From a virus: DNA of 45,406 nt. This document shows, piece after piece, positions 3,435-37,837 of the stretch. The stretch lies in IMG/VR virus record IMGVR_UViG_3300011244_000002, positions 1 through 45,406 of that record, one strand, 5' to 3'. The notes under the pieces were generated by a model. That model had not been told where the DNA came from. It saw only the letters and a program-made list of their open reading frames with translations, and searched no databases. Made by a program: the position numbers and the translations under genes. Position 1 is the first letter of the stretch. Every line of letters starts with the position of its first letter.

Positions 3435-4009
3435 GACAGCGCCTCCGCCAGTTCGGGTTCGCGGGCCGCCGCTTGCCGCTCCTCAACTATGCTGGCGAAC
3501 GCGCGGAGATAGGATGCAACCGCGATGGGCTCATCAAAGTCGTCGTATCCTCGACTGTTCGTGTTGGGCTTCCGTAGCGTCAGTCCGGCCCGCTTGCGAA
3601 TCGCACGACACGACAGCCACTCCAAATGATCGAAGTCATCCAGCGACATCCCAGAGTCGCAGAGAACTTGAAACACCACCGGCATTGGAAGACCAGAGCT
3701 ACGACAGACGTGTTTGGACATCATCTCCCACGTACCAATCAGAAGCCCTCTTGCGTCTCGAAGTTCATCCTCATTTACACCCATTACGCACTGGGCGAGG
3801 ATGCCGCAGTTGCAGCAATCAGTGAGCTGCCATTCGTATCCGTCCTTCGCCTCGATCCGCGCCGCCGCCGCCCGCATCGCTTCCGGTAATGTCTTCGCGT
3901 TCATGGCGTTCTCCTCTTGCATGGCCCTGGCGATCCGCTCGACCAGCCCGTCCTCGGCCTGCTCCATTAGCCGATAGCAGGCGGCGTCGGTGAGGGGCGG
4001 CGGGGTCAT
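3431..4009 (-). CDS. Hypothetical phage protein with Cys-rich centre
   Basis: 192 residues. The start at 4009 is chosen because it makes an ATGA overlap with the previous gene and has GAGG 7 nt upstream; a longer frame exists but its extra part is Arg-rich and lies opposite that gene. A central segment NAKTLPEAMRAAAARIEAKD followed by CCNCGILAQCVMG may bind metal. I recall this kind of domain as common in early regions of high-GC phages but cannot assign a function. Confidence 0.75.
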   Translation of the reverse strand: MTPPPLTDAACYRLMEQAEDGLVERIARAMQEENAMNAKTLPEAMRAAAARIEAKDGYEWQLTDCCNCGILAQCVMGVNEDELRDARGLLIGTWEMMSKHVCRSSGLPMPVVFQVLCDSGMSLDDFDHLEWLSCRAIRKRAGLTLRKPNTNSRGYDDFDEPIAVASYLRAFASIVEERQAAAREPELAEALS

Positions 4010-4218
4010 CGCACGTCCTCGGTGATGGTCACGCGGACGACGCGGGCGCCAGGCTTCTGTGCCATCGAGGATTCCTTGGCGTCGTCCGTCAGCCGAAATA
4101 CCGACACGGGTTCGTCGCCCATGTAGTGGTCGAACCGTCCGGTACGATGCACCACCGCCCACGCCTTCGCGGTGACAGGCTTCGCGAGCTTGCGGGGTTT
4201 CTTCTGTTGCTTCGCCAT
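4006..4218 (-). CDS. Hypothetical small basic protein
   Basis: 70 residues with a Lys-rich start (AKQQKKPRKLAKP). AAGGA lies about 6 nt before the ATG. It is the first gene after the long structured non-coding block, and an 8-bp GC hairpin (4232-4258) stands just upstream of its ribosome site. Function is not recognised. Confidence 0.68.
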   Translation of the reverse strand: MAKQQKKPRKLAKPVTAKAWAVVHRTGRFDHYMGDEPVSVFRLTDDAKESSMAQKPGARVVRVTITEDVR

Positions 4219-4231
4219 CTCTCATCCTTTC

Positions 4232-4731
4232 CCCCGGCGACCCAACCGGCCGCCGGGGCTGTCGCGTACAAGTCGCGGCTCGCGTGTCGAACGCGAATAC
4301 GGCGTGTTAGAGCCGCACGTCGAAGGACGCCGCGATATAAGGGCGAGCGTGCCGCGGCTTCATGGCAGGCGCGGGCACCCTCACGTTACGGAGGGGGTCC
4401 ATGAACTCGCTCGCCCAAAGGGACGCCAGCCGGTTAAGGCTGACGGCCCGGTGCTCGATTCACCCGCCATGGCTAGAGTCGGTGTCACACCGGCCCAGGC
4501 GAATCGAGCCCAAAGGGACACCAGCCGGTTAGGACTGGCGGCCCTGAAACAAAGGCGAGTGGCCCTGCCTTATTCGTCGTATTCGGCAGGCGCCCTCTCG
4601 CAAGAGGGACGCAGCTAAGTCACTCGCCCAAGCCAGCAGCGCCCAGTCACGGACGCCGCCGGCATAAGGCCCCGCCGGGGGAGCGGGGCTGACACGCGCA
4701 ACCGACGCCGGGGAGGGGTAGCCGGCGGTTG
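4232..4731. ncRNA. Candidate large structured RNA with repeated modules
   Basis: About 500 nt without a convincing gene, in a genome where most neighbours overlap. Four long-range stems have unrelated arm sequences: 4275-4281/4310-4316, 4341-4349/4408-4416 (9 bp), 4454-4461/4501-4508 and 4554-4561/4621-4628. Five copies of a GGACGCC...TAAGG motif occur at 4325-4342, 4421-4439, 4516-4533, 4607-4619 and 4651-4669. Copies are preceded by a small hairpin of changing length, e.g. CCC-AAA-GGG against CCCTCT-CGCA-AGAGGG. Strong terminal hairpins lie at 4232-4258, 4669-4689 and 4699-4731. A-rich loops hint at the plus strand, but the strand is unproven. Size and phage setting recall ROOL or GOLLD RNAs, but I see no sequence match. 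Confidence 0.62.
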
Positions 4732-4760
4732 ATATGGTTGCGGTGTCGATGTCCATCACG

Positions 4761-5024
4761 TCACCCCACAGCTTCGCTCCGCACCAGCCCAGCGGATACC
4801 GCTCCCCAAATACGAATGGCGGCGTCAAATCGCATCTCTCTCCACTCCTTGTCCTTGATGGCCCGCTCCTTGTTGCTGTGCAGAAGCTCTACTTGGGCGC
4901 GAAGGCTCTCCAACGTCACGTCCGACTGGCTGGCGATGTCGTTGAGAATGTCAACGTCCTGACACACCAGTGCCGCGACTTGTTGAAACTCACGGGCCAT
5001 TTCTTCGGGGATTTCACGAATCAT
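4761..5024 (-). CDS. Hypothetical coiled-coil-like protein
   Basis: 87 residues, mainly helical and acidic. The ATG at 5024 is preferred over ATG 5030 and GTG 5054 because AAGGA lies 7 nt upstream. It is separated from the next gene downstream by the structured non-coding block. Not recognised. Confidence 0.66.
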   Translation of the reverse strand: MIREIPEEMAREFQQVAALVCQDVDILNDIASQSDVTLESLRAQVELLHSNKERAIKDKEWREMRFDAAIRIWGAVSAGLVRSEAVG

Positions 5025-5103
5025 TTCCATTTCCTTAAAACCCGCTTCCGCCACGATGCTCTACCGGTCGCTCGTCGCGCCAGCGGCAAGGGCGGAGGGG
5101 ACG

Positions 5104-5451
5104 TTACGCGAAGGCGTTCTCCGTGTAGAACTCGCGAAGGCGGACAAGGACGTCGCGTTTCGAGTGCGAGTCGTACTCGTCCGGATCAAACAGCCGTCGT
5201 GCATCTTCGTCCTCTATTTCAAATTCAGACGCCCAATCTGAAAAGCCGATGGCACCAACTTCGTCGCGGCGATGAACACTGCGGCTTTTCGGGTAAATCA
5301 CGAATCGCTCCGGCTGTGAAATCGCATACCAGCCGCACGCGCAACCAACGGTTCCACATTCGTCCTGCGTAACCCAATCCTTCATTTTGAATCTCTCCTC
5401 GGGCACCTGCTCGACAACCTCGATGAGCTTTTTGAATCGCTCGGCGTTCAT
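5104..5451 (-). CDS. Hypothetical phage protein with CGTVGCACGW motif
   Basis: 115 residues. The segment ECGTVGCACGWYA (about 32-44), followed by an acidic C-terminal half, matches a widespread small family in phage early regions with no known role. GGAGG lies 6 nt before the ATG, which overlaps the stop of the Lar-like gene. Confidence 0.75.
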   Translation of the reverse strand: MNAERFKKLIEVVEQVPEERFKMKDWVTQDECGTVGCACGWYAISQPERFVIYPKSRSVHRRDEVGAIGFSDWASEFEIEDEDARRLFDPDEYDSHSKRDVLVRLREFYTENAFA

Positions 5452-6686
5452 CGCGTACCTCCGCTGAAGCCTTCATCGAACCGTTCTACGTCCGCAGCCT
5501 CCCCCGCCGGCACGCCGCCCAGGCTGTCGGCGCGGGGCTTCCCCGCCGCGCCGCGTTCGGCCGCCAGCACGGAGCGGATGGCCGCGACGGCGCCGTCCCG
5601 CGCGTCCCTGTGGCCGCGGCGGTAGTCGGAAGAGAATGGGCCTTTGTCCTGGTCGAAGTAGAGGTACGCCACCGCCGCCACCAGCCGCCCCTCCAGACCG
5701 GGCGTCGGCTGGACACCCGCAACTCGATTCAACTCGTCCACAACGGCCTGCGCTTCCGCGCGGTTGTCCTTCTCCCCGTCGTCGTCGCCACCGATCTTGC
5801 TCAGGGGGATCGCGACCGCGCCGTCGCGGACGATTTCCCAGAAGAATTCCGCCTTGTCGTTCAGGCTGTAGGGACCGATCTCGCCGTGGAGGCTGGCGGA
5901 AATATCGGCCAGCTCGCGACGGTCCTCAGCGGCCTCAGCGCGGATGTCTTTCAGGCTTCGTTCAGTCGCGACGGTGGCGCGGTAGGCGGCGCGGTAGGCG
6001 GCGAGTCGCTCGTCAACCAGCTTGGTAGCTCGCGTGATGTTGCTGCTCCCGGCCACCCACGCCTCACACTGGGCGCTGCGCATGCGACAGACGGATTCCG
6101 CCAGCGGGTCGGCGTTGAGCATCTTCTGAATGTGTTCGACCAGTGCTTCGTCATCGGCTGGTCCCTTCCACGTGAAGCCGACCTTGTACCCAAGGAAGCG
6201 AACGAACCTGCCGCGTTCGTCGATTCTTTCGAGTGCCGCACGTCGCTCATTATCGACACCATGTAGCTCAGCTACCGCCGCCTCCACCACGCCGCGGCTG
6301 GGCGGGGGGACGCGACGATTCCAGGCGGCGACGGCTTCGGCTCTGCTGTTCCAGACCCGGCTCTCGCCAATGCAGCATGACCACCACCAGGCGCCACTGC
6401 GGGAACACTTGAATAGAACCTCGTCACTACCGCACCACGGGCACGCCGCGGGCTTCTCCGTCGCCTGCTCCGCCGCCGGAGCGGGGGCGTCGGCCGCCGC
6501 GTGGCGCAACTCGTGGGGGCGGTAGTAAAGCTGAACCTCGGTTGGGAGGTCGGGCCAGCGCACGCCGACGTTAAGACTGCGAACACTCACCACGGTGCCG
6601 ATGCCGGGGGGCCGGTGCTCGTACCGAACCTTGTCGCCAACCTGGAACGACGTCACTGCGGGGGGTTGCTCATTGATCGTCGTCAT
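5448..6686 (-). CDS. Lar-like restriction-alleviation domain protein
   Basis: 412 residues. An N-terminal SH3/Tudor-like segment (VGDKVRYEHRPPGIGTVVSV, about 17-36) is followed by a Lar-type zinc domain (CPWCGSDEVLF ... SCCIGESRVWNSRAEAVAAW, about 82-125), then helical regions and a C-terminal RRGHRDARDGA segment. Lar proteins of Rac and related prophages relieve host type I restriction; that role here is inferred from the domain. The start at 6686 has GGAGG 8 nt upstream. With the methyltransferase it could form a two-part defence against restriction. The unusual length suggests a multi-domain fusion. Confidence 0.75.
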   Translation of the reverse strand: MTTINEQPPAVTSFQVGDKVRYEHRPPGIGTVVSVRSLNVGVRWPDLPTEVQLYYRPHELRHAAADAPAPAAEQATEKPAACPWCGSDEVLFKCSRSGAWWWSCCIGESRVWNSRAEAVAAWNRRVPPPSRGVVEAAVAELHGVDNERRAALERIDERGRFVRFLGYKVGFTWKGPADDEALVEHIQKMLNADPLAESVCRMRSAQCEAWVAGSSNITRATKLVDERLAAYRAAYRATVATERSLKDIRAEAAEDRRELADISASLHGEIGPYSLNDKAEFFWEIVRDGAVAIPLSKIGGDDDGEKDNRAEAQAVVDELNRVAGVQPTPGLEGRLVAAVAYLYFDQDKGPFSSDYRRGHRDARDGAVAAIRSVLAAERGAAGKPRADSLGGVPAGEAADVERFDEGFSGGTR

Positions 6687-6690
6687 CGCA

Positions 6691-6828
6691 TCAACCTCCA
6701 ATCGCCCACACCAGACCGTACGCCACCATCGCCGCTGCCGCCGTCAGTACCAGAACCCATAGGCATCCCCCTGGCGTCGCGCGGCCGTCGTCGTCATCCG
6801 GGTGATAGGGGTGGTGGTACAGGTTCAT
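6691..6828 (-). CDS. Small single-span membrane protein (45 aa)
   Basis: A 45-residue protein with a His/Asp-rich N-terminus and one hydrophobic segment (CLWVLVLTAAAAMVAYGLVW). GAGGAG lies 7 nt before the ATG, and its stop falls 2 nt before the Lar-like gene's ribosome-site spacer, so the genes are tightly coupled. Function unknown. Confidence 0.62.
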   Translation of the reverse strand: MNLYHHPYHPDDDDGRATPGGCLWVLVLTAAAAMVAYGLVWAIGG

Positions 6829-6839
6829 GACGTCGCTCC

Positions 6840-7064
6840 TCAAGCTGTTGCCGTGTCCAGGAGCACCGACGACCGCGACTCGACAATGACCACCAGGGCT
6901 CGGTAGCCGCGAGCGAGATACTCTTCGGCTTTGCGCTTGGCGCTGGCTTCATCCTGAGCGAATTCGATCAATCGCCAACGTTGCGCCGAACCGAAGCACC
7001 ACACCTGATACCGCACCTCGTCGCGCTCCACCTGCGGGGGCAGGGGGATGGTTGTTTGGGTCAT
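6840..7064 (-). CDS. Hypothetical small protein
   Basis: 74 residues with a YQVWCFGSAQRWRLIEFAQ core and a helical segment that suggest a small alpha/beta fold. GAGG lies 7 nt before the ATG, which overlaps the previous stop (ATGA). Not recognised. Confidence 0.68.
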   Translation of the reverse strand: MTQTTIPLPPQVERDEVRYQVWCFGSAQRWRLIEFAQDEASAKRKAEEYLARGYRALVVIVESRSSVLLDTATA

Positions 7065-7288
7065 CGCAGCGCCTCGATTCGCTCCCGCACCCGGTCACCC
7101 AGCCGCTCCATCCATCTCCGCCACGCGAACAGCAGCCGCCTCTGCGCCGCTCTGGCGTCTTCGCCTTCCGGCAGGGGCTGGCTCACGATCTCGCGGACGC
7201 GATTCATCTCCATCATGGTGAAGCCGATGAGCCTCACCGCCTCCCGCTTCGCGCCGTCCCTGGCGCCGCTCGTCTTCGCGAGCTGCAT
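7061..7288 (-). CDS. Hypothetical helical protein
   Basis: 75 residues, Arg-rich and helical. The start at 7288 is chosen for its strong AAGGAG 6 nt upstream; the longer frame overlaps the upstream gene and is not needed. Function unknown. Confidence 0.65.
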   Translation of the reverse strand: MQLAKTSGARDGAKREAVRLIGFTMMEMNRVREIVSQPLPEGEDARAAQRRLLFAWRRWMERLGDRVRERIEALR

Positions 7289-7355
7289 TTTCTGCTCCTT
7301 CGCCCAACGCCTATCGCGGCGAGGGGCGTACGAATGTGAATCCCCCTTAGCTATC

Positions 7356-7910
7356 TCATTCCCTCGCTTTTGCTGGCACGAAGTGAACCGCACCGGTGCC
7401 GCTACGAACAGCAAGGTCCACCGTGATGGGCCTATCTCGGAATCTGCCAATCCCCTGGTTGCCAACTCGGGTTGATTTCCCAATTAGCTTCTGCCGTTCT
7501 CGCAGCGCCCGGCGACGGCCTTTCCGGACAAGGCTATCCATGCGGTTGCAAGGACTCGGCGCCTTGAGCACAAATCCGGCTTTTGGGAGGACGTCTTCTC
7601 CGCGGTCGAATGCTTCAACCAGCGCCCTCATGGTGGATGGCATGTCGAACCTCTCAACGCGCATCGAGCCATCTTCCTTTGGAAGCTCGACATACGCGAC
7701 GGTGCGGAAAAACAATACCTTTGACGCGCCGAATGAACGTTTGCAGGCTTGGGCGAAAACGCAGGCGCCAGCGTCGGTGCGGGTGGCTTGTTCTACATCC
7801 TTCTGGATGATTAGAACTCGCAAATCCTTGTCTGCATCTACTACTGGCGTATCACCCCAGAGCCTCTTGATTTCGGCGGCCGCCTCTTCCTTGTATTTGG
7901 GTTTTGCCAT
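7356..7910 (-). CDS. Hypothetical phage protein
   Basis: 184 residues. The first 120 form a conserved-looking alpha/beta region (DLRVLIIQKDVEQATRTDAG, then CVFAQACKRSFGASKVLFFR and later RFDMPSTMRALVEAFDRGE); the C-terminal 60 are very basic, suggesting nucleic-acid contact. AGAGG lies 5 nt before the ATG. No function can be assigned. Confidence 0.72.
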   Translation of the reverse strand: MAKPKYKEEAAAEIKRLWGDTPVVDADKDLRVLIIQKDVEQATRTDAGACVFAQACKRSFGASKVLFFRTVAYVELPKEDGSMRVERFDMPSTMRALVEAFDRGEDVLPKAGFVLKAPSPCNRMDSLVRKGRRRALRERQKLIGKSTRVGNQGIGRFRDRPITVDLAVRSGTGAVHFVPAKARE

Positions 7911-7973
7911 CGCGACCTCTTATAAGAATCCCGAGAACTTCCCACGCCTCCGCACCCGCCCGCGCACTACGCT

Positions 7974-8186
7974 TCACCCGGCGGCGGCGGACTCGCGGCG
8001 AGTGCCGTTGCGGCGCTGTTCCATCCGGCGCAGCGCCTCGGCCTTTACCTCTGGCGAAGCGATGTCCATCAGCTCGACAAGGAACTCCGGCAAGGCCTGC
8101 ATCTTCATCCCCATGCCGTCAGCCTTACGCTTCATCCGCGAGTGCGTCCGGGTGTTCACCGCGATGTTTGTTCGTTCGTCCTTCAT
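7974..8186 (-). CDS. Small ribbon-helix-helix-like regulator
   Basis: 70 residues: RTNIAVNTRTHSRMKRKADG, a MKMQALPEFLVELMDIA helix and a basic tail, which fits a short beta strand plus two helices (RHH). RHH proteins bind direct repeats as dimers of dimers. Four phased repeats lie immediately upstream (8213-8283), so it may control its own divergent promoter region. A GTG at 8198 preceded by AGGA is an alternative start. Confidence 0.6.
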   Translation of the reverse strand: MKDERTNIAVNTRTHSRMKRKADGMGMKMQALPEFLVELMDIASPEVKAEALRRMEQRRNGTRRESAAAG

Positions 8187-8212
8187 GACTTGTTCCACTC
8201 ATCCTACGGTGA

Positions 8213-8283
8213 GAAAACACGATTGCAACTGAAGAAAACACGAGTCTCCACTAGAAAACACGTAACCCCATTCGTCAAAACAT
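8213..8283. repeat. Phased direct repeats GAAAACACG, probable operator array
   Basis: GAAAACACG occurs exactly at 8213-8221, 8234-8242 and 8254-8262, with a weaker copy CAAAACATG at 8275-8283. The start-to-start steps are 21, 20 and 21 bp, i.e. two helical turns, so proteins bound there would sit on one face of the DNA. The array fills the divergent gap between two small RHH-like genes and overlaps the plus-strand start codon. Confidence 0.72.
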
Positions 8284-8704
8284 GTTGCTTGCCGCAAAAA
8301 AATCTGGTTTGATTTCCGACATGCCAAAGGAAGCGGAGGAAGATGAGGGGCGCAGGTCGATCAATCTCGAATTGACCATCGAGGCGGGCGACACCTTGGA
8401 CCAGTTGGCCAAAGAGTTCGGGATGGTGAAGAAGGTGCTGCTATCGCGGATTGTGGAGTGGTGGGCGGGGCAACACGAAGGGGTGCAAAAGCTGGCGACG
8501 AATCGGCTTATCCGTGGGTATGAGCTGGTGGCGCTGAAGGCGATCGTCCGCCACCTGGAGACCAGCCAGGGCGGTACACCGAAGGAGACGCCTAGCAAAC
8601 GAGACCAACCACCAAGCGGCGCCGTGGGTAATGCTCCGCCGTCAGGTCCTCCGCTGCCCGCCGAACAGCCTCCGCCCGCTCGTCAGGGGAAACGTCGGAA
8701 TTGA
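8282..8704 (+). CDS. RHH/CopG-like DNA-binding protein with Pro-rich tail
   Basis: 140 residues (127 if it starts at ATG 8321). Residues about 24-62 read as a beta strand RSINLELTIEAGD plus helices LDQLAKEFGMVKKVLLSRIV, a typical ribbon-helix-helix pattern; the last 40 residues are Pro-rich and probably disordered. The repeat array lies in its leader and overlaps the first start codon. Its end overlaps the convergent minus-strand gene by 113 bp. It may be a partner or antagonist of the divergent regulator. Confidence 0.62.
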   Translation: MLLAAKKSGLISDMPKEAEEDEGRRSINLELTIEAGDTLDQLAKEFGMVKKVLLSRIVEWWAGQHEGVQKLATNRLIRGYELVALKAIVRHLETSQGGTPKETPSKRDQPPSGAVGNAPPSGPPLPAEQPPPARQGKRRN

Positions 8705-8825
8705 CGAACAGGCGCATCGTGTCGTGGTCCGCGTGGCAGCACAGGCCGGGGTATCGCCAGCCAGCGGCGGACATCAGAAGGACTTCGTATTGAAAGGGAC
8801 CGACGCTCACAAAATCAGGCAGCAT
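8592..8825 (-). CDS. Hypothetical protein, possible degenerate ImmA/IrrE-like domain
   Basis: 77 residues. The pattern VGPFQYEVLLMS...MRLFVNSDVSPDERAEAVRRAAEDLTAEHY resembles the front part of small zinc-protease-like phage proteins, but no HExxH is present, so catalysis is not supported. GGAGG lies 5 nt before the ATG, and a TTGATT/TACCCT promoter-like pair lies upstream. It converges on and overlaps the RHH-like gene. Confidence 0.62.
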   Translation of the reverse strand: MLPDFVSVGPFQYEVLLMSAAGWRYPGLCCHADHDTMRLFVNSDVSPDERAEAVRRAAEDLTAEHYPRRRLVVGLVC

Positions 8826-9119
8826 AAGAACCTCCCCTGTTCGGTAAAGATTAAGGGTATCAAGTGGTCTGTTGGAATCAACTAGTCACTCGCGCCGCCC
8901 GTCCTCAGCCAAATGCTCATCCTCGTCTCGGTAATCGTAGATGTTATCGGACTTGGCTGGATGGGCAAGAAACGTAGTATCTTGCCGACTCGGCGGTGGA
9001 TGGGCTGTGGACAAGCTGGCGGGCGGTCGTGAGGGTCGCTACGTGAAGCCGTAGAGCTGGTTCAGCCGTTCCCGCCTGTCCGGGCACCCGATGAGGGTGC
9101 CCGGGGGAGGGAGGGGATC
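8826..9119. promoter_or_regulatory. Non-coding control region with several hairpins
   Basis: No convincing gene. Inverted repeats seen are CAGCCAA/TTGGCTG (about 8908-8960), GGCAAGA/TCTTGCC (8964-8970/8980-8986) and a 10-bp hairpin CCGGGCACCC/GGGTGCCCGG (9080-9089/9095-9104). A weak plus-strand promoter, TTGGCT with TAGTAT 16 bp on (TAGTAT at 8975-8980), overlaps the second repeat. It precedes the HTH/replication-like gene and could be an operator or replication origin; nothing in the sequence decides this. Confidence 0.45.
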
Positions 9120-9260
9120 ATGTCATTTCTGCAAACTCGTTTGGATTTTGGTAAAGTGACAACGCAGGACCGCCCACGGTTAGAGCCCGTGGGCGGTCGT
9201 TATCGGAAAGGACTTGTCACTTGCCATCCTACCACAATGGACCGCCACGTCCATATGTAA
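9120..9260 (+). CDS. Possible 46-aa leader peptide
   Basis: An ATG with AGGGG 5 nt upstream opens a 46-codon frame that runs through a 12-bp perfect hairpin and ends 40 bp inside the next gene, in another frame. It could be a translated leader that controls ribosome access to the downstream TTG start. The product has no recognisable features, so it may not be a real gene. Confidence 0.35.
   Translation: MSFLQTRLDFGKVTTQDRPRLEPVGGRYRKGLVTCHPTTMDRHVHM
9168..9198 (+). promoter_or_regulatory. Perfect 12-bp hairpin before the 9221 gene
   Basis: GACCGCCCACGG (9168-9179) pairs perfectly with CCGTGGGCGGTC (9187-9198) around a 7-nt loop. No T-run follows, so it is not a classical terminator. It ends 10 bp before the AAGGA ribosome site of the next gene and may modulate its translation or be a protein-binding site. 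Confidence 0.6.
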
Positions 9261-10156
9261 ACAAATCAACATGCGTTGACGACGGTGTTACACATGAGAC
9301 TGAGAGACGCAGGACAAACAGCGAGAAGGAACGAGACCCAGCGCTTGCGGTGGTTTTTTCGAAAAACGCCGATGTCACAACCGACACCACGGACCCCGTT
9401 CGCGTTTGGCGAAACGGCCGCTCCGAATGGTTCGCCGAGGTCATGCGCCGCCCGTACAGCGACTTCATGTTGGCGGCATTCAAGTACCACGGCGAGATGA
9501 GCACCGGCAATGCCTGGCGGTCGGAACTGTTCCACTTCGTTTGGTTCCTTCGCGGGCATCCTGAGTTCACGCCGTTACTCCGCGACCACATGGCGGCGCT
9601 GCGCAAGGTTGAGACGACGCTGAAGGGATGGACACAGGCGGCGCGAAGCCAGCGGAAGCCGATGCCCCACGGCGACACGAAAGACCACTGGAACAACTGG
9701 TTTGGCGTAGACACCCTAAACGCACAAGCGGAGTTCGCAGACGTGTGGATGAAGTCGAGGTACCTGCCCGGTCACAGCCCACTGCAACAGGCGGTCGACG
9801 CCAATCGGCGGCTTCGCCTCATCCTTCCCGATGACGTGGCGGCGATGCGCCCCCTCGGCGAAAAGAGCGAGCGGAGCGAGGGTGATTATGAGTTCTTCAT
9901 CGGCATCGCCGGACATCTGCAACTTGCCGTGGGCGATCAGGACATCAAACTGCCCTGCGAGAACCTGAGCAAGTTGATGGGCGTGTCAAAGATGACCGTC
10001 AGCCGCTACCGACGATGGGCGGTAGATGACAAGTTCATGTTGCTGATGAAAGCTCACCGCTACAACCCCCGCCGCGGCGCCGGTGACGCGACCGAGTTCC
10101 GATTCGACCTGGAGCGCTGGCCAGATCTACGAAAGAAGGCGGAGAAGACCGCCTAA
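9221..10156 (+). CDS. HTH DNA-binding protein, possible replication protein
   Basis: 311 residues. Start is TTG at 9221 with AAGGA 8 nt upstream; no ATG or GTG offers a better start. After a variable N-terminus comes a helical domain (about 60-120), and near the C-terminus a helix-turn-helix (LPCENLSKLMGVSKMTVSRY) leading into a wing-like end with ATEFRFDLERW. Architecture and position suit a replication initiator or primase-associated HTH protein, as in other phages without their own polymerase. No catalytic motifs are visible. It is transcribed rightward, against the structural operon. Confidence 0.7.
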   Translation: MPSYHNGPPRPYVNKSTCVDDGVTHETERRRTNSEKERDPALAVVFSKNADVTTDTTDPVRVWRNGRSEWFAEVMRRPYSDFMLAAFKYHGEMSTGNAWRSELFHFVWFLRGHPEFTPLLRDHMAALRKVETTLKGWTQAARSQRKPMPHGDTKDHWNNWFGVDTLNAQAEFADVWMKSRYLPGHSPLQQAVDANRRLRLILPDDVAAMRPLGEKSERSEGDYEFFIGIAGHLQLAVGDQDIKLPCENLSKLMGVSKMTVSRYRRWAVDDKFMLLMKAHRYNPRRGAGDATEFRFDLERWPDLRKKAEKTA

Positions 10157-33156: not shown

Positions 33157-34809
33157 CTATTGAAGCAGGCCACCAGATAGGTTCGCACCAACGCCACCAC
33201 CGCCGCCGCCGCCTCCCGACCCCAGCCCCTCGGTCACCGTCGCGAACCAGTGATAGGCGTCGAGCTGCCCGATCATGTTGTATCCCGCCTGCGTCGGATG
33301 GATTCCGTCTGTGGTCAACGAAGGCATGTCCGCGAACAGGTCGTACACCCACGGGTTGCCGGCATAGACGCGAACGCCGGCGGGGTTGTCCGAGGCAGCG
33401 GCGATTTCCCGCTGCGCCTGCTGGTAGAGCCGCAGGGCGGCATACCGGTCGGCGGGGGCGATGACCCGCGCCGCGAAGTAGTCCCAGGCGAAGGTCTGAT
33501 ACAGCAACCAGATCCGCGCGACCGTCGGGACGTTGGCCGTTACGTAATCGACCGCCGCCTGGAGCTTGTCCTTGAACGTGCCCGCAGCGACCGTGCCGGC
33601 ATCGTTAATCCCGATACGGGCCTGCCAGTCGGTGCTGCCCGCGGCGACCATCGCGTCCTTGTGGGCGATCAGCGTCGCGGTCGGCGTGAGGTCGGCGTTA
33701 ACGAACGCCCCAATCCCGCCGCCCGCTACCCCGCTGGCCCCGGCGGCGATGCCGGTCGTGTTGAGCAGCCCCTCCAGCGTCGTCCCCATCGTCGTCACCG
33801 ACTGCGGGGAGCCACCGCTGGTGATCGAGTCGCCCGACTGGTAAATGATGGGCACCACCAGCGCCACGGGGCGGGTGGTGCGGCCGGTGGCCTGGAGCAG
33901 GTAGTCGCTGGCCGCCGTCGCGGCCACGCTGTCGGTGACGATCTGCTTGTAGACGTACCGGGTGTCAGCGGTCAGCCCGGTGTCGGTGAACGACAGCAGG
34001 TTGTCGGTGCCGGCGATCTTGTTGCCCGCGTTGGGCGTGTCGTTGATCGAGGCGAGCCGGTGATTCGTGTACGTGTACGGGTTGGTCCCGCCGCTCGCCG
34101 CAACGAAAGTCACCGCGAGGCTGTTGTGCGTTCGTGCGGCGACGCTCCCGACGCCCGGCGCCAGGGCCACGTCCACGCCGCCGTCGAAGTTATCGAAATG
34201 CGGGCCAGTGGTGTCACTGGCGACGTGCCCGTACGTGAATAGGCCCATCTTGCCGCGGGCCGAGATCGCGCTATCGGTCACGCTCAGACAATTGATCTGT
34301 CCCGCCTGCCAGGTGCCATCCGATTTCAGCCACTGGCTGTTACTGGACCGCTGGACACGGGCATAGATGTTCGTCCCGTTGACCCCAATCGTGATCGTGT
34401 AGGTAACGCCGGTGGCGAACGTGTGCGTGACCGTGCCGAGGGTCGTCTCCGCGCCGGCGACCTTCTTGCGAAGCGTGAAATTTGTCGTTCCCGCCGCCGC
34501 AGTCCCCAATATGGCGGAGTAATAGGTATTGGCTGATGTTGAAACTCGAATCGCAGGACCACCGATAGACCCGTCTTCGGCGCCAACCAGCACATCCTGA
34601 ACCTGCACTTCGTAGATGTCGGCGCCGGGATCTTCGCTTCGGTAGTAGAGCCGGTTCTGCCCAGCGGTATTGCTGTTGCGGCAGCGGCCATTCGTGGAGT
34701 CGATAATCAGGGTCGCGGCGGTGTACGAACCGTGCCGCACCCAATTGGCGTTGTAGACGTTGAGCGCGTCGCCGCTTGTGCCGGTGAATGGGTCGGTTAC
34801 GTGAGCCAT
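33157..34809 (-). CDS. Tail fibre with SGNH/GDSL esterase domain
   Basis: 550 residues. A concanavalin-like lectin domain (about 1-210, FTGTSGDALNVYNANWV), a fibronectin-III-like strand region (215-310) and a C-terminal SGNH hydrolase: nucleophile Ser328 in SGDSITSGG, a GINDAG segment and DGIHPTQAGYN with Asp501 and His504. Such virion esterases remove acetyl groups from host surface glycans. It ends in a Gly-rich tail (SGGGGGGGGVGANLSGGLL). Confidence 0.83.
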   Translation of the reverse strand: MAHVTDPFTGTSGDALNVYNANWVRHGSYTAATLIIDSTNGRCRNSNTAGQNRLYYRSEDPGADIYEVQVQDVLVGAEDGSIGGPAIRVSTSANTYYSAILGTAAAGTTNFTLRKKVAGAETTLGTVTHTFATGVTYTITIGVNGTNIYARVQRSSNSQWLKSDGTWQAGQINCLSVTDSAISARGKMGLFTYGHVASDTTGPHFDNFDGGVDVALAPGVGSVAARTHNSLAVTFVAASGGTNPYTYTNHRLASINDTPNAGNKIAGTDNLLSFTDTGLTADTRYVYKQIVTDSVAATAASDYLLQATGRTTRPVALVVPIIYQSGDSITSGGSPQSVTTMGTTLEGLLNTTGIAAGASGVAGGGIGAFVNADLTPTATLIAHKDAMVAAGSTDWQARIGINDAGTVAAGTFKDKLQAAVDYVTANVPTVARIWLLYQTFAWDYFAARVIAPADRYAALRLYQQAQREIAAASDNPAGVRVYAGNPWVYDLFADMPSLTTDGIHPTQAGYNMIGQLDAYHWFATVTEGLGSGGGGGGGGVGANLSGGLLQ

Positions 34810-34895: not shown

Positions 34896-35149
34896 GATTT
34901 CACGCCTCGCAGCCACTCCGACACGCGACGCTTGACGGTGGCCGCCACGGCACCTGTGGCGAAGTACGCCAGATCGCCCAGTGCGGCGGTTTCGGGATTA
35001 TCCGGGGTCACTATCCCGAGCCCAGTAATCCACACCTTGCCGCCGCCTTCGACGGTGGTGAAACACTCATCGAGCGCTTCGCGAATGACCGTCTGCAGCT
35101 CGTCACGAAAACGGTGCAGTGCCGCGACCTCTTTTGTCATCTGTGGCAT
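34892..35149 (-). CDS. Hypothetical protein between fibre genes
   Basis: 85 residues: a helical start (VAALHRFRDELQTVIREALD) and a compact end. The start at 35149 shares its A with the tailspike stop (TAATG). Family not recognised. Confidence 0.62.
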   Translation of the reverse strand: MPQMTKEVAALHRFRDELQTVIREALDECFTTVEGGGKVWITGLGIVTPDNPETAALGDLAYFATGAVAATVKRRVSEWLRGVKS

Positions 35150-36903
35150 TAGTTCAGCCCCACCCACTCCCGCACCCGCTTGACGTGAGGCGCCGCGTCC
35201 GCCGCCGCGACGTCGCCGGCACGCAGACGATCTACAAGAGTCTTGACCCACGAACCGTCCAGAGCCGGGCAGGCGGCATGGCGTTGCACGTTGAGCTTGT
35301 CGATGTTCGTGCGGTTGCCCTTGCGAATTACCTGCGCGTCAGCCCAGCCAAAAGCGTGGTTGTCGGCACCTTCCGCCGACACGTCGCCTTCCCACGGCCA
35401 GCCTTGGTTCGGATCTTTTGACCGCGGCCCGATGTTCAAGCACGGGTGCGGCACGTCAACACCTTTAGACGCGCCGGGTGGCAGGGCGAACACGTTACCG
35501 GCAATGACTCCCTGTGAATGGAAGTCCAGCCCGCCCGTGCCGTGCTTTTCTCCGCCGTAGCCAGCCGCGGCGCCACCAGAGATGACCGCGTTGCCCACGA
35601 ACGCCGTATGTTCCGGACCATTGAGCAGCGCCCCGATGGGCTGGTCGATCATGCAGCAACCGCGAACCGCGCCACCGTCAGGCCGAACCTGAAAACCCAT
35701 GAACCCATTGCGGATCGCAAGGCAGGCGAGGAATTTCCAGTCACGGGCGCCGGTGTCGTAGATCGGCCCGTTCGCCTTGTCGCGCATCAAAGACCCGTTC
35801 GCGTATGCCGCGTGCTCGAACATGGAGCGTTTTGCATTTGTCTTGTCTGACTCCCACCCGTTGCCCACGAACGCCCACCGTTCCCACGTCACGTCGCGGG
35901 CGAATGCGCCGTAGACTCCCTGCCCAAGGTACCCGCTTCCGATGTTGTCGGCCGACACTCCATCGGACCACCGGTGATGCTCGCTCAGCCCGCCGATGGG
36001 CTTGTGGGCGTACGTCACGCCGTTGGAGAAGCCACGGAGCAGCACCCGCCGCACGGTCAGGTTCTTGACGGCGGCGCTCAAGTAGATCGCAGCGTTACCT
36101 GACGTGCCGCCCTCGCGGACGATATGCACGTCCTGCACCAGCACGTCACTGCACGGCTTGGTGAAGTGGATGCCGTGGCTCGACTCAGGCGAAATCTTCG
36201 GCGGCGCCCCGGTGCCCCATGCACCGATGACGATGCCGCTGACCGCCACGTTGAACTGCCGGCGCCACGACCCGCCGCGCTCCAGCAACAGTTGATCGCC
36301 CGTGCCGAGCGTCGCGGGCGGCTGTTCGCCCTTGCGGACCTGGTGCCGCTTCGCCCCGGCGGGCAGCGGCGGCAGTTCTCCCGTCGGCGGCGGCTCCGGG
36401 TCGGGCGTGCCGATGACGGGGGCGATGGTCACCCGCGCCACCACGAACTCGCCGCCGTCCAATCCGATCTTGGCCAGGGCCGCCGACGCGAACCCACGGG
36501 CGCTCAACTGGTAGCTGCCGGCGGGCACGAGTAACGGCTTGGGGCGCCCATTATCGTCAGTGCTGAGCGTCAGGGGGCGCACCGTCTCCACCCGGTCAAT
36601 CGCCGATGGTTCGACGAGCGGCGCGCCTACCCGGTTGAGCCAAAACCTCACTGCCGGCGCATCGCTGATGCCGACGACGGTTTCGCCGGGCTTGAGCGTG
36701 TCACCATCCACCACGTTCCGGAGCGTCTTGCCGGTGCCTACTTCGCTGACCACAAGCGTCACGGACGGCACGCCGGGGGGGGGCGGCGCGTCTGGGTAGA
36801 ACCGCTCAACCACTGCCACGTACACGCCCAGCGATGCGCTCGCCAGTGGATAGGCGGCGCGGGCGGGGGCCAGGAGCAATTCCACGGGGTGGGGCATGTT
36901 CAA
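35149..36903 (-). CDS. Right-handed beta-helix tailspike, putative depolymerase
   Basis: 584 residues: N-terminal virion-binding part with two small beta domains (to about 170), then a parallel beta-helix with successive short turns (DVLVQDVHIVREGGTSGNA, KNLTVRRVLLRGFSNGV, VTWERWAFVGNGW, AFVGNAVISGG). This fold is common in phage polysaccharide lyases and hydrolases; no catalytic residue can be fixed. A second start at 36897 is equally likely. It adjoins the esterase fibre. Confidence 0.8.
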   Translation of the reverse strand: MNMPHPVELLLAPARAAYPLASASLGVYVAVVERFYPDAPPPPGVPSVTLVVSEVGTGKTLRNVVDGDTLKPGETVVGISDAPAVRFWLNRVGAPLVEPSAIDRVETVRPLTLSTDDNGRPKPLLVPAGSYQLSARGFASAALAKIGLDGGEFVVARVTIAPVIGTPDPEPPPTGELPPLPAGAKRHQVRKGEQPPATLGTGDQLLLERGGSWRRQFNVAVSGIVIGAWGTGAPPKISPESSHGIHFTKPCSDVLVQDVHIVREGGTSGNAAIYLSAAVKNLTVRRVLLRGFSNGVTYAHKPIGGLSEHHRWSDGVSADNIGSGYLGQGVYGAFARDVTWERWAFVGNGWESDKTNAKRSMFEHAAYANGSLMRDKANGPIYDTGARDWKFLACLAIRNGFMGFQVRPDGGAVRGCCMIDQPIGALLNGPEHTAFVGNAVISGGAAAGYGGEKHGTGGLDFHSQGVIAGNVFALPPGASKGVDVPHPCLNIGPRSKDPNQGWPWEGDVSAEGADNHAFGWADAQVIRKGNRTNIDKLNVQRHAACPALDGSWVKTLVDRLRAGDVAAADAAPHVKRVREWVGLN

Positions 36904-36956
36904 AAGGCTGGCGGCGGGTGAGCGCCGCCAACCCTCGGGGAAGGAGGAGGAATCGT

Positions 36957-37226
36957 TTACACCGGCGGAGTCACCGGGTCGGGCAGCGGGTTCTGCGGGT
37001 CAGTCCCGGCGGCTTCGGCTTCGCTGATGACGGCGTCCAGGGCCGCGTCGTCTGCCGCCTCGTCGGCGGCGCTCTTACCTTCCTCGGTGGCGGGCAAGCC
37101 ACCAGCGGCCACCTGCGCCCGCAGGGTAGCGATGGTTTCCCGGGCTTCGCGGAGCGTAACCACCCATCGGTCGGTGGTTGTCTTGATTCGGTCAATGAGT
37201 GCCTGTGTGGCGGCAGAGATTGCCAT
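36957..37226 (-). CDS. Small helical protein with acidic tail
   Basis: 89 residues with helix AISAATQALIDRIKTTTDRW and an Asp/Glu-rich end. ATG 37226 has AAGGG 5 nt upstream. A GTG at 37301, overlapping the upstream stop, would add a hydrophobic N-terminal segment (KLAQLAAALFVARKL), so two forms may be made. Confidence 0.65.
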   Translation of the reverse strand: MAISAATQALIDRIKTTTDRWVVTLREARETIATLRAQVAAGGLPATEEGKSAADEAADDAALDAVISEAEAAGTDPQNPLPDPVTPPV

Positions 37227-37297
37227 AACTACCCTTTCAAGTTTGGTGAGCTTTCGCGCCACGAACAGCGCGGCGGCGAGTTGTGCGAGCTTGAGAA

Positions 37298-37837
37298 TCA
37301 CGCCTTGCCCTTCTTCTCCGCGTCGGTGCCGGGCGGGACATCAGCCTTCCCCTTCTTCTCCGCGTCGGTGCCGGGCTGGACATCGACAATGAGCTGCGCG
37401 GCGGCGTGGGACAGAGCTGCTCGCTCAGCTTCGATAGCGGCAGCAGAAGTTTCCATGTCATCAGGCGTTAAGTCCGAAACCCTCCGCTTAGCGTCCGCCA
37501 CTTCACGCAGAAGCACACCCCTGTCGTGGTTGGCAAGCGTGTGAGTCGCAGTGGTGACCTTAACTACGCCTTCCACCTTTTCATCCACACACTTCACCCC
37601 TTTGGCCAGCTTCGTAGCGGCTGCCAAATTGTCCTGCTCCATCTTGAGTGTGGCCAGCTTTAGCTCTGCCTGAACCTTGTCAGCAGCCAACTGGAGCTTT
37701 TTGAACTCGAATCGCTGATTGAGCCAAATGCCCACCAGCCCAATCGCCGGCACTACCACGGCAATCACCACGTTCCCGTCCACCGCCGCCAGCGCCGTGC
37801 CGACAGCGGTCACCCCAATAATCACCAGGCTTTTCAC
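37298..37837 (-). CDS. Membrane-anchored coiled-coil protein
   Basis: 179 residues: two hydrophobic segments at the start (VIIGVTAVGTALAAV, VVIAVVVPAIGLVGIWL), then a long coiled coil and a C-terminal tandem repeat of 14 residues. ATGA overlaps link it to the genes on both sides. It resembles holin- or spanin-associated proteins by layout only. Confidence 0.68.
   Translation of the reverse strand: MKSLVIIGVTAVGTALAAVDGNVVIAVVVPAIGLVGIWLNQRFEFKKLQLAADKVQAELKLATLKMEQDNLAAATKLAKGVKCVDEKVEGVVKVTTATHTLANHDRGVLLREVADAKRRVSDLTPDDMETSAAAIEAERAALSHAAAQLIVDVQPGTDAEKKGKADVPPGTDAEKKGKA
37302..37385. repeat. 42-bp in-frame tandem repeat, two copies
   Basis: Two nearly identical 42-bp units encode DVQPGTDAEKKGKA and DVPPGTDAEKKGKA at the end of the coiled-coil gene. 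Copy number may vary between relatives. Confidence 0.85.

Follow-up and report, generated by a model that had tools for sequence, protein, structure and literature searches.

A non-coding element of about 540 nt, highly structured and internally repeated, occupies the gap at 4219-4760 of a temperate phage genome and is most likely an RNA made from the minus strand. Its non-coding nature, its fold and its repeats come directly from computation; its function we infer. Our best reading, to which we assign a probability of about 0.4, is a modular structured RNA that would be co-transcribed within the early operon, excised or protected from the message, and would act in trans as a multi-site scaffold or decoy.

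The window, the whole stretch of DNA analysed here, is a complete IMG/VR record of 45,406 bases. Its minus strand carries genes for a lambda-type portal, a GpA-like terminase and a tape measure protein; a tyrosine integrase is encoded on the plus strand (1006-2214), and small helix-turn-helix genes lie at 2363-2973. The virus is temperate and siphophage-like. Two other genes gave marginal matches: a 412-aa early gene (5448-6686, minus strand) weakly matches Lar-like restriction alleviation proteins over a short stretch, and a gene in the structural half (33157-34809, minus strand) has a weak GDSL lipase/esterase domain match that lies under the Pfam cut-off. Among cultured phages the terminase has only remote relatives. 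Relatives were also found at 16 loci of bacterial genomes, 15 of them titled as Planctomycetota or a group thereof and one simply as 'bacterium'. Beside the integrase, 3.4 kb from the element, the 3' half of a tRNA-Ser gene is present from the anticodon (CGA) onward, at about 777-836 on the plus strand, with identity of up to 94% to Planctomycetota tRNA-Ser genes. A tRNA 3' half near an integrase is the usual sign of attP, and this half is probably the attP core. It was unusable for placing the host below phylum, since tRNA-Ser is too conserved.

The element fills the space from the stop codon of one minus-strand gene to the ribosome-binding site of the following one. The following list gives its predicted helices and motif copies and the two flanking genes (all coordinates are on the minus strand; values are pair probabilities).

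4219-4760, minus: whole structured non-coding element, intercistronic, supported by the codon statistics and by the fold z-score
4761-5054, minus: upstream gene, 97 aa, no family match, its stop codon abutting the element
4006-4218, minus: downstream gene, 70 aa, no family match
4691-4747, minus: stem Pa (GACACCGCAACC / GGUUGCG-CGUGUC) with an inner hairpin, 1.00 with and without flanks
4669-4689, minus: hairpin h1 (GCCCCGC/GCGGGGC), preceding motif copy 1, 1.00
4651-4669, minus: motif copy 1, CCUUAUGCCGGCGGCGUCC, from the motif scan
4632-4663, minus: hairpin h2, 13 bp with three G-U and zero A-C, from the pair analysis
4553-4629, minus: stem Pb (GGGCGAGUG/CACUCGCC), within which lie two hairpins as well as motif copy 2, 0.88-0.94
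4607-4619, minus: motif copy 2, CUUAGCUGCGUCC, from the motif scan
4514-4545, minus: unit-3 hairpin, GGGCCGCCAGUC-CUAACC-GGCUGGUGUCCC, containing motif copy 3 (4516-4533), 0.96-0.99
4450-4511, minus: stem Pc, 14 bp, GCUCGAUUCGCCUG/CGGGUGAAUCGAGC, 0.99
4420-4449, minus: unit-4 hairpin, GGGCCGUCAGCC-UUAACC-GGCUGGCGUCCC, containing motif copy 4 (4421-4439), 0.98-1.00
4341-4416, minus: stem Pd (GGGCGAGCG/CGCUCGCCC), 0.97-0.98
4325-4342, minus: motif copy 5, CCUUAUAUCGCGGCGUCC, with a CGUCCUU segment able to base-pair to the Shine-Dalgarno region of gene 4006-4218
4297-4318, minus: hairpin h7, 0.97
4262-4296, minus: hairpin h8, weaker, 0.67-0.86
4232-4258, minus: hairpin h9, 11 bp, just before the ribosome-binding site of gene 4006-4218, 1.00

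With a codon model trained on the phage itself, no gene was called in 4219-4760. All of the open reading frames listed inside the gap had negative coding scores except for one of 31 aa, and the largest on the minus strand (4529-4828) scored -0.05 per codon, whereas called genes of comparable size score +0.11 to +0.46. Coding on either strand was rejected on negative coding scores, including that of a 75-aa frame starting near 4756. The original prediction had described some 500 nt without a convincing gene and had named protein coding on either strand as one outcome that would overturn it; the codon statistics indicate that the gap is truly non-coding.

The minus strand of the gap has a minimum free energy of -292 kcal/mol, with a z-score of -7.5, compared with -4.2 for the plus strand (100 shuffles); a smaller set of 15 shuffles gave -6.3 and -5.1, respectively. 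Since 78 other stretches of this phage, equal in length, had a mean z-score of -0.17 (sd 1.22) and a minimum of -3.4, the predicted fold is by far the most stable of the phage. It is only this shuffle-based z-score that sets the region apart, as its total inverted-repeat content is within the range of coding windows. Most of the main helices had pair probabilities of 0.85-1.0, and most stayed in that range when flanks of 150 nt were included; the outermost closure, CGUGAUG/UAUCGCG, was lost with flanks, falling from 0.90 to 0.01. Together with the codon statistics, the z-score and the helix probabilities support the earlier proposal of a large, repeated, structured non-coding element. Four long stems with unrelated arms had also been proposed: the stems are found in the predicted fold, but GGGCGAGUG and GGGCGAGCG have 8 of 9 bases in common, so that the arms are not all unrelated. 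A pseudoknot between GCCUUAU and AUAAGGC (4670-4664 with 4573-4567) is possible, but better stems compete with it. Elsewhere in the phage, a second gap with a strong minus-strand fold, at 8705-9349 (minus strand), has a z-score of about -5.1 (12 shuffles); its hairpins are GACCGCCCACGG/CCGTGGGCGGTC and GGGCACCC/GGGTGCCC, and its loop CTCTAACC recalls the motif loops.

On the minus strand the repeated motif reads CYTWA...GGYGTCC, and its five copies have their first A/T-rich base at 4667, 4618, 4532, 4437 and 4340, giving spacings of 49, 86, 95 and 97 nt from copy 1 to copy 5. In 2000 shuffles the pattern occurred on average 0.02 times and at most twice, a contrast that is somewhat overstated because the pattern was written after the copies had been seen. 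Five of the six matches on both strands of the whole window fall within the element. Units 3 and 4 are identical at 33 of 37 positions (89%, E 9e-7). The motif had been given previously as five copies of GGACGCC...TAAGG; five related copies are indeed present, but that form is exact in three only, the others being GGACACC...TTAGG and GGACGCA...TAAG.

Of the four differences between units 3 and 4, three affect the stem; each of the three leaves the minus strand with a G-U or G-C pair, where the plus strand would have an A-C mismatch. All of these stem changes are one-sided wobble changes, with no pair altered on both sides. In the best stems of the region the ratio of G-U to A-C is likewise 7:2, compared with 239:268 elsewhere. 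Because the unit differences preserve wobble pairs and G-U is in excess, small as these numbers are (3 of 3 and 7:2), the RNA most likely comes from the minus strand; judged from these base changes, it would be read leftwards, on the strand opposite to that used originally to write the motif.

Searches for relatives covered covariance models and several sequence sets. The Rfam models, ROOL and GOLLD among them, gave no hit at gathering score and nothing meaningful at E values of up to 10, which bears out the earlier statement that no known motif is present. No homologue was found by blastn against phages and plasmids, no homologous region in IMG/VR through the neighbouring proteins or the integrase, and no homologue in 21 terminase-related phage records, many of them fragments, which were searched with a unit model and, for 12 of the 21, also by DNA. 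Only isolated weak hairpins were recovered by DNA or unit model from 14 genomes with a terminase relative and from two partly overlapping draws of 392 and 398 Planctomycetota genomes; the unit model was built from two units of one sequence and picks up close relatives only, and the host is known to phylum only. Several kinds of match were rejected. Exact matches to the motif pattern in IMG/VR fell inside open reading frames with no other motif copy present; these matches, as well as short GC-rich DNA matches in phages, plasmids, terminase relatives and Planctomycetota genomes, were judged to be chance. The covariance-model matches to units 3 and 4 consisted of one weak hairpin per genome, several of them terminator-like, and never two together. 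A possible second copy within the phage, at 36898-36934 on the minus strand (26 bits to the unit hairpin), is a single hairpin followed by UUUU with no module; it is terminator-like and lies between genes 36957-37301 and 35149-36897. Structured gaps in one relative, G005, were considered as a parallel, but the strongest includes an apparent tRNA, as judged by eye, and so provides none. Since no homologous region was found in the searched sets there is nothing to covary with, which leaves the earlier proposal of a conserved RNA structure unsupported by data, and within those sets the element is an unconserved orphan represented by one sequence.

GOLLD RNAs have a universally conserved 3' region, and the cage of ROOL is homo-oligomeric. 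ROOL and GOLLD are large structured phage RNAs of unknown function that are often located near tRNA islands and form RNA cages, and many GOLLD members are over 800 nt (PMC12286853). The element resembles ROOL as a large structured non-coding RNA of phages and prophages, and GOLLD in being large, phage-encoded and multi-stemmed. The original comparison with both families holds for size and phage context only. The element is not matched by the ROOL model, and its phage is temperate, with no tRNA or tmRNA gene in the window (ARAGORN) and only the attP tRNA-Ser half; it also lacks an Rfam match to GOLLD, is shorter at about 540 nt and has no tRNA island. Because the covariance models fail and no tRNA gene is near, we do not file it with either family. 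Type III toxin-antitoxin systems, with ToxI-like repeats, similarly have tandem structured repeats upstream of a small gene. However, the repeats of the element are irregular, and neither the 70-aa neighbour nor the gene at 4761-5054 matches a toxin, defence or other family in Pfam, NCBIfam or PADLOC, so that no toxin gene is identified beside the repeats.

How might such an element work? All adjacent genes are on the minus strand, no promoter-like site was found in the gap or nearby (the scan covered sigma-70-type sites only), and there are no terminator-like sites on the minus strand in 3900-8900, which suggests co-transcription. As the element extends from a stop codon to a ribosome-binding site without a terminator or a sigma-70-type promoter, a polycistronic early transcript is probable. 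The element would thus be transcribed as part of the leftward early operon and may fold during transcription as a string of very stable helices, each independent of the others. Each repeated module would join a stem whose sequence varies to an invariant CYUWA...GGYGUCC element, with 86-97 nt separating three of the modules. The RNA would then most likely be excised or protected from the mRNA and act in trans. As a stable multi-site RNA it could serve as a scaffold or a decoy, its repeated element binding a partner from the phage or the host, or further copies of the same RNA. Size, repetition and analogy are what point to this putative trans role.

The location of the element also fits a cis-acting intercistronic leader controlling translation or mRNA stability for gene 4006-4218 and later genes, which we consider possible though unlikely. 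It takes up the whole space between the stop codon upstream and the ribosome-binding site downstream, and motif copy 5 could mask the latter site until a partner binds or ribosomes arrive: AAGGAU has a predicted openness of 0.14 in the full RNA, compared with 0.93 if the RNA starts at 4340. However, the masking pair falls to 0.66 with flanks, in the truncated fold opening of the Shine-Dalgarno sequence closes the AUG, and masking one site needs far less than five modules over 540 nt. We prefer action in trans because the four further modules would be superfluous for masking in cis. It is doubtful that the element works at the DNA level, with tandem sites or hairpins to which a DNA-binding protein of the phage attaches (iterons for replication or partition, or else a mobile palindromic repeat). 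All five motif copies do share a single orientation and the plus strand also folds better than its shuffles, but a DNA function does not demand the preference for G-U over A-C on the minus strand in unit differences and strong stems, and a mobile repeat should have extra copies, of which there are none in the window, the relatives or the searched Planctomycetota genomes.

Antitermination by put RNA involves the zinc-binding domain of the RNA polymerase beta' subunit. An attenuator or antiterminator array with a role like that of the HK022 put RNA, itself a structured RNA of a temperate phage early operon, as the element would be, appears improbable. The unit-3 and unit-4 hairpins end in CCCUUU and resemble planctomycete terminator hairpins, and terminator-like hairpins (L181, L188 and L189) are among the best chance matches that the unit model gave in Planctomycetota; this hairpin form may, from its sequence, be common to planctomycete terminators. 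Yet the U tract is just three long, an intrinsic terminator or attenuator should have a stem followed by a U-rich tract and the minus strand has none in 3900-8900, and put RNAs are about 70 nt, with two stem-loops near early promoters (PMC9378689), whereas the element is about 540 nt and mid-operon. Among the host hairpins, that of L181 at about 1500-1540, GGGGGGACGTCAGCC-TAACCG-CTTGGCGTCCCCCC-TTTTTT, is terminator-like and close to units 3 and 4 in sequence. Finally, palindromic debris or decayed sequence of no function in a GC-rich genome would agree with the lack of demonstrable conservation in the sets searched and with an inverted-repeat total like that of coding windows, but is highly improbable given the tandem motif and a z-score far beyond background.

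Few large structured phage RNAs of the kind of ROOL and GOLLD are known; those studied are abundant, and their function is unknown. The further step, that the element stands for a new class of RNAs in Planctomycetota phages, large, modular, structured and acting in trans, whose CYUWA...GGYGUCC modules bind a partner or one another, is tentative and on balance unlikely; as one sequence without relatives, the element is a good candidate and not yet a class. If true, it would be a further, unrelated RNA from a poorly sampled phage lineage and would show more than one origin for such RNAs, with internal repeats that offer a defined module to test.
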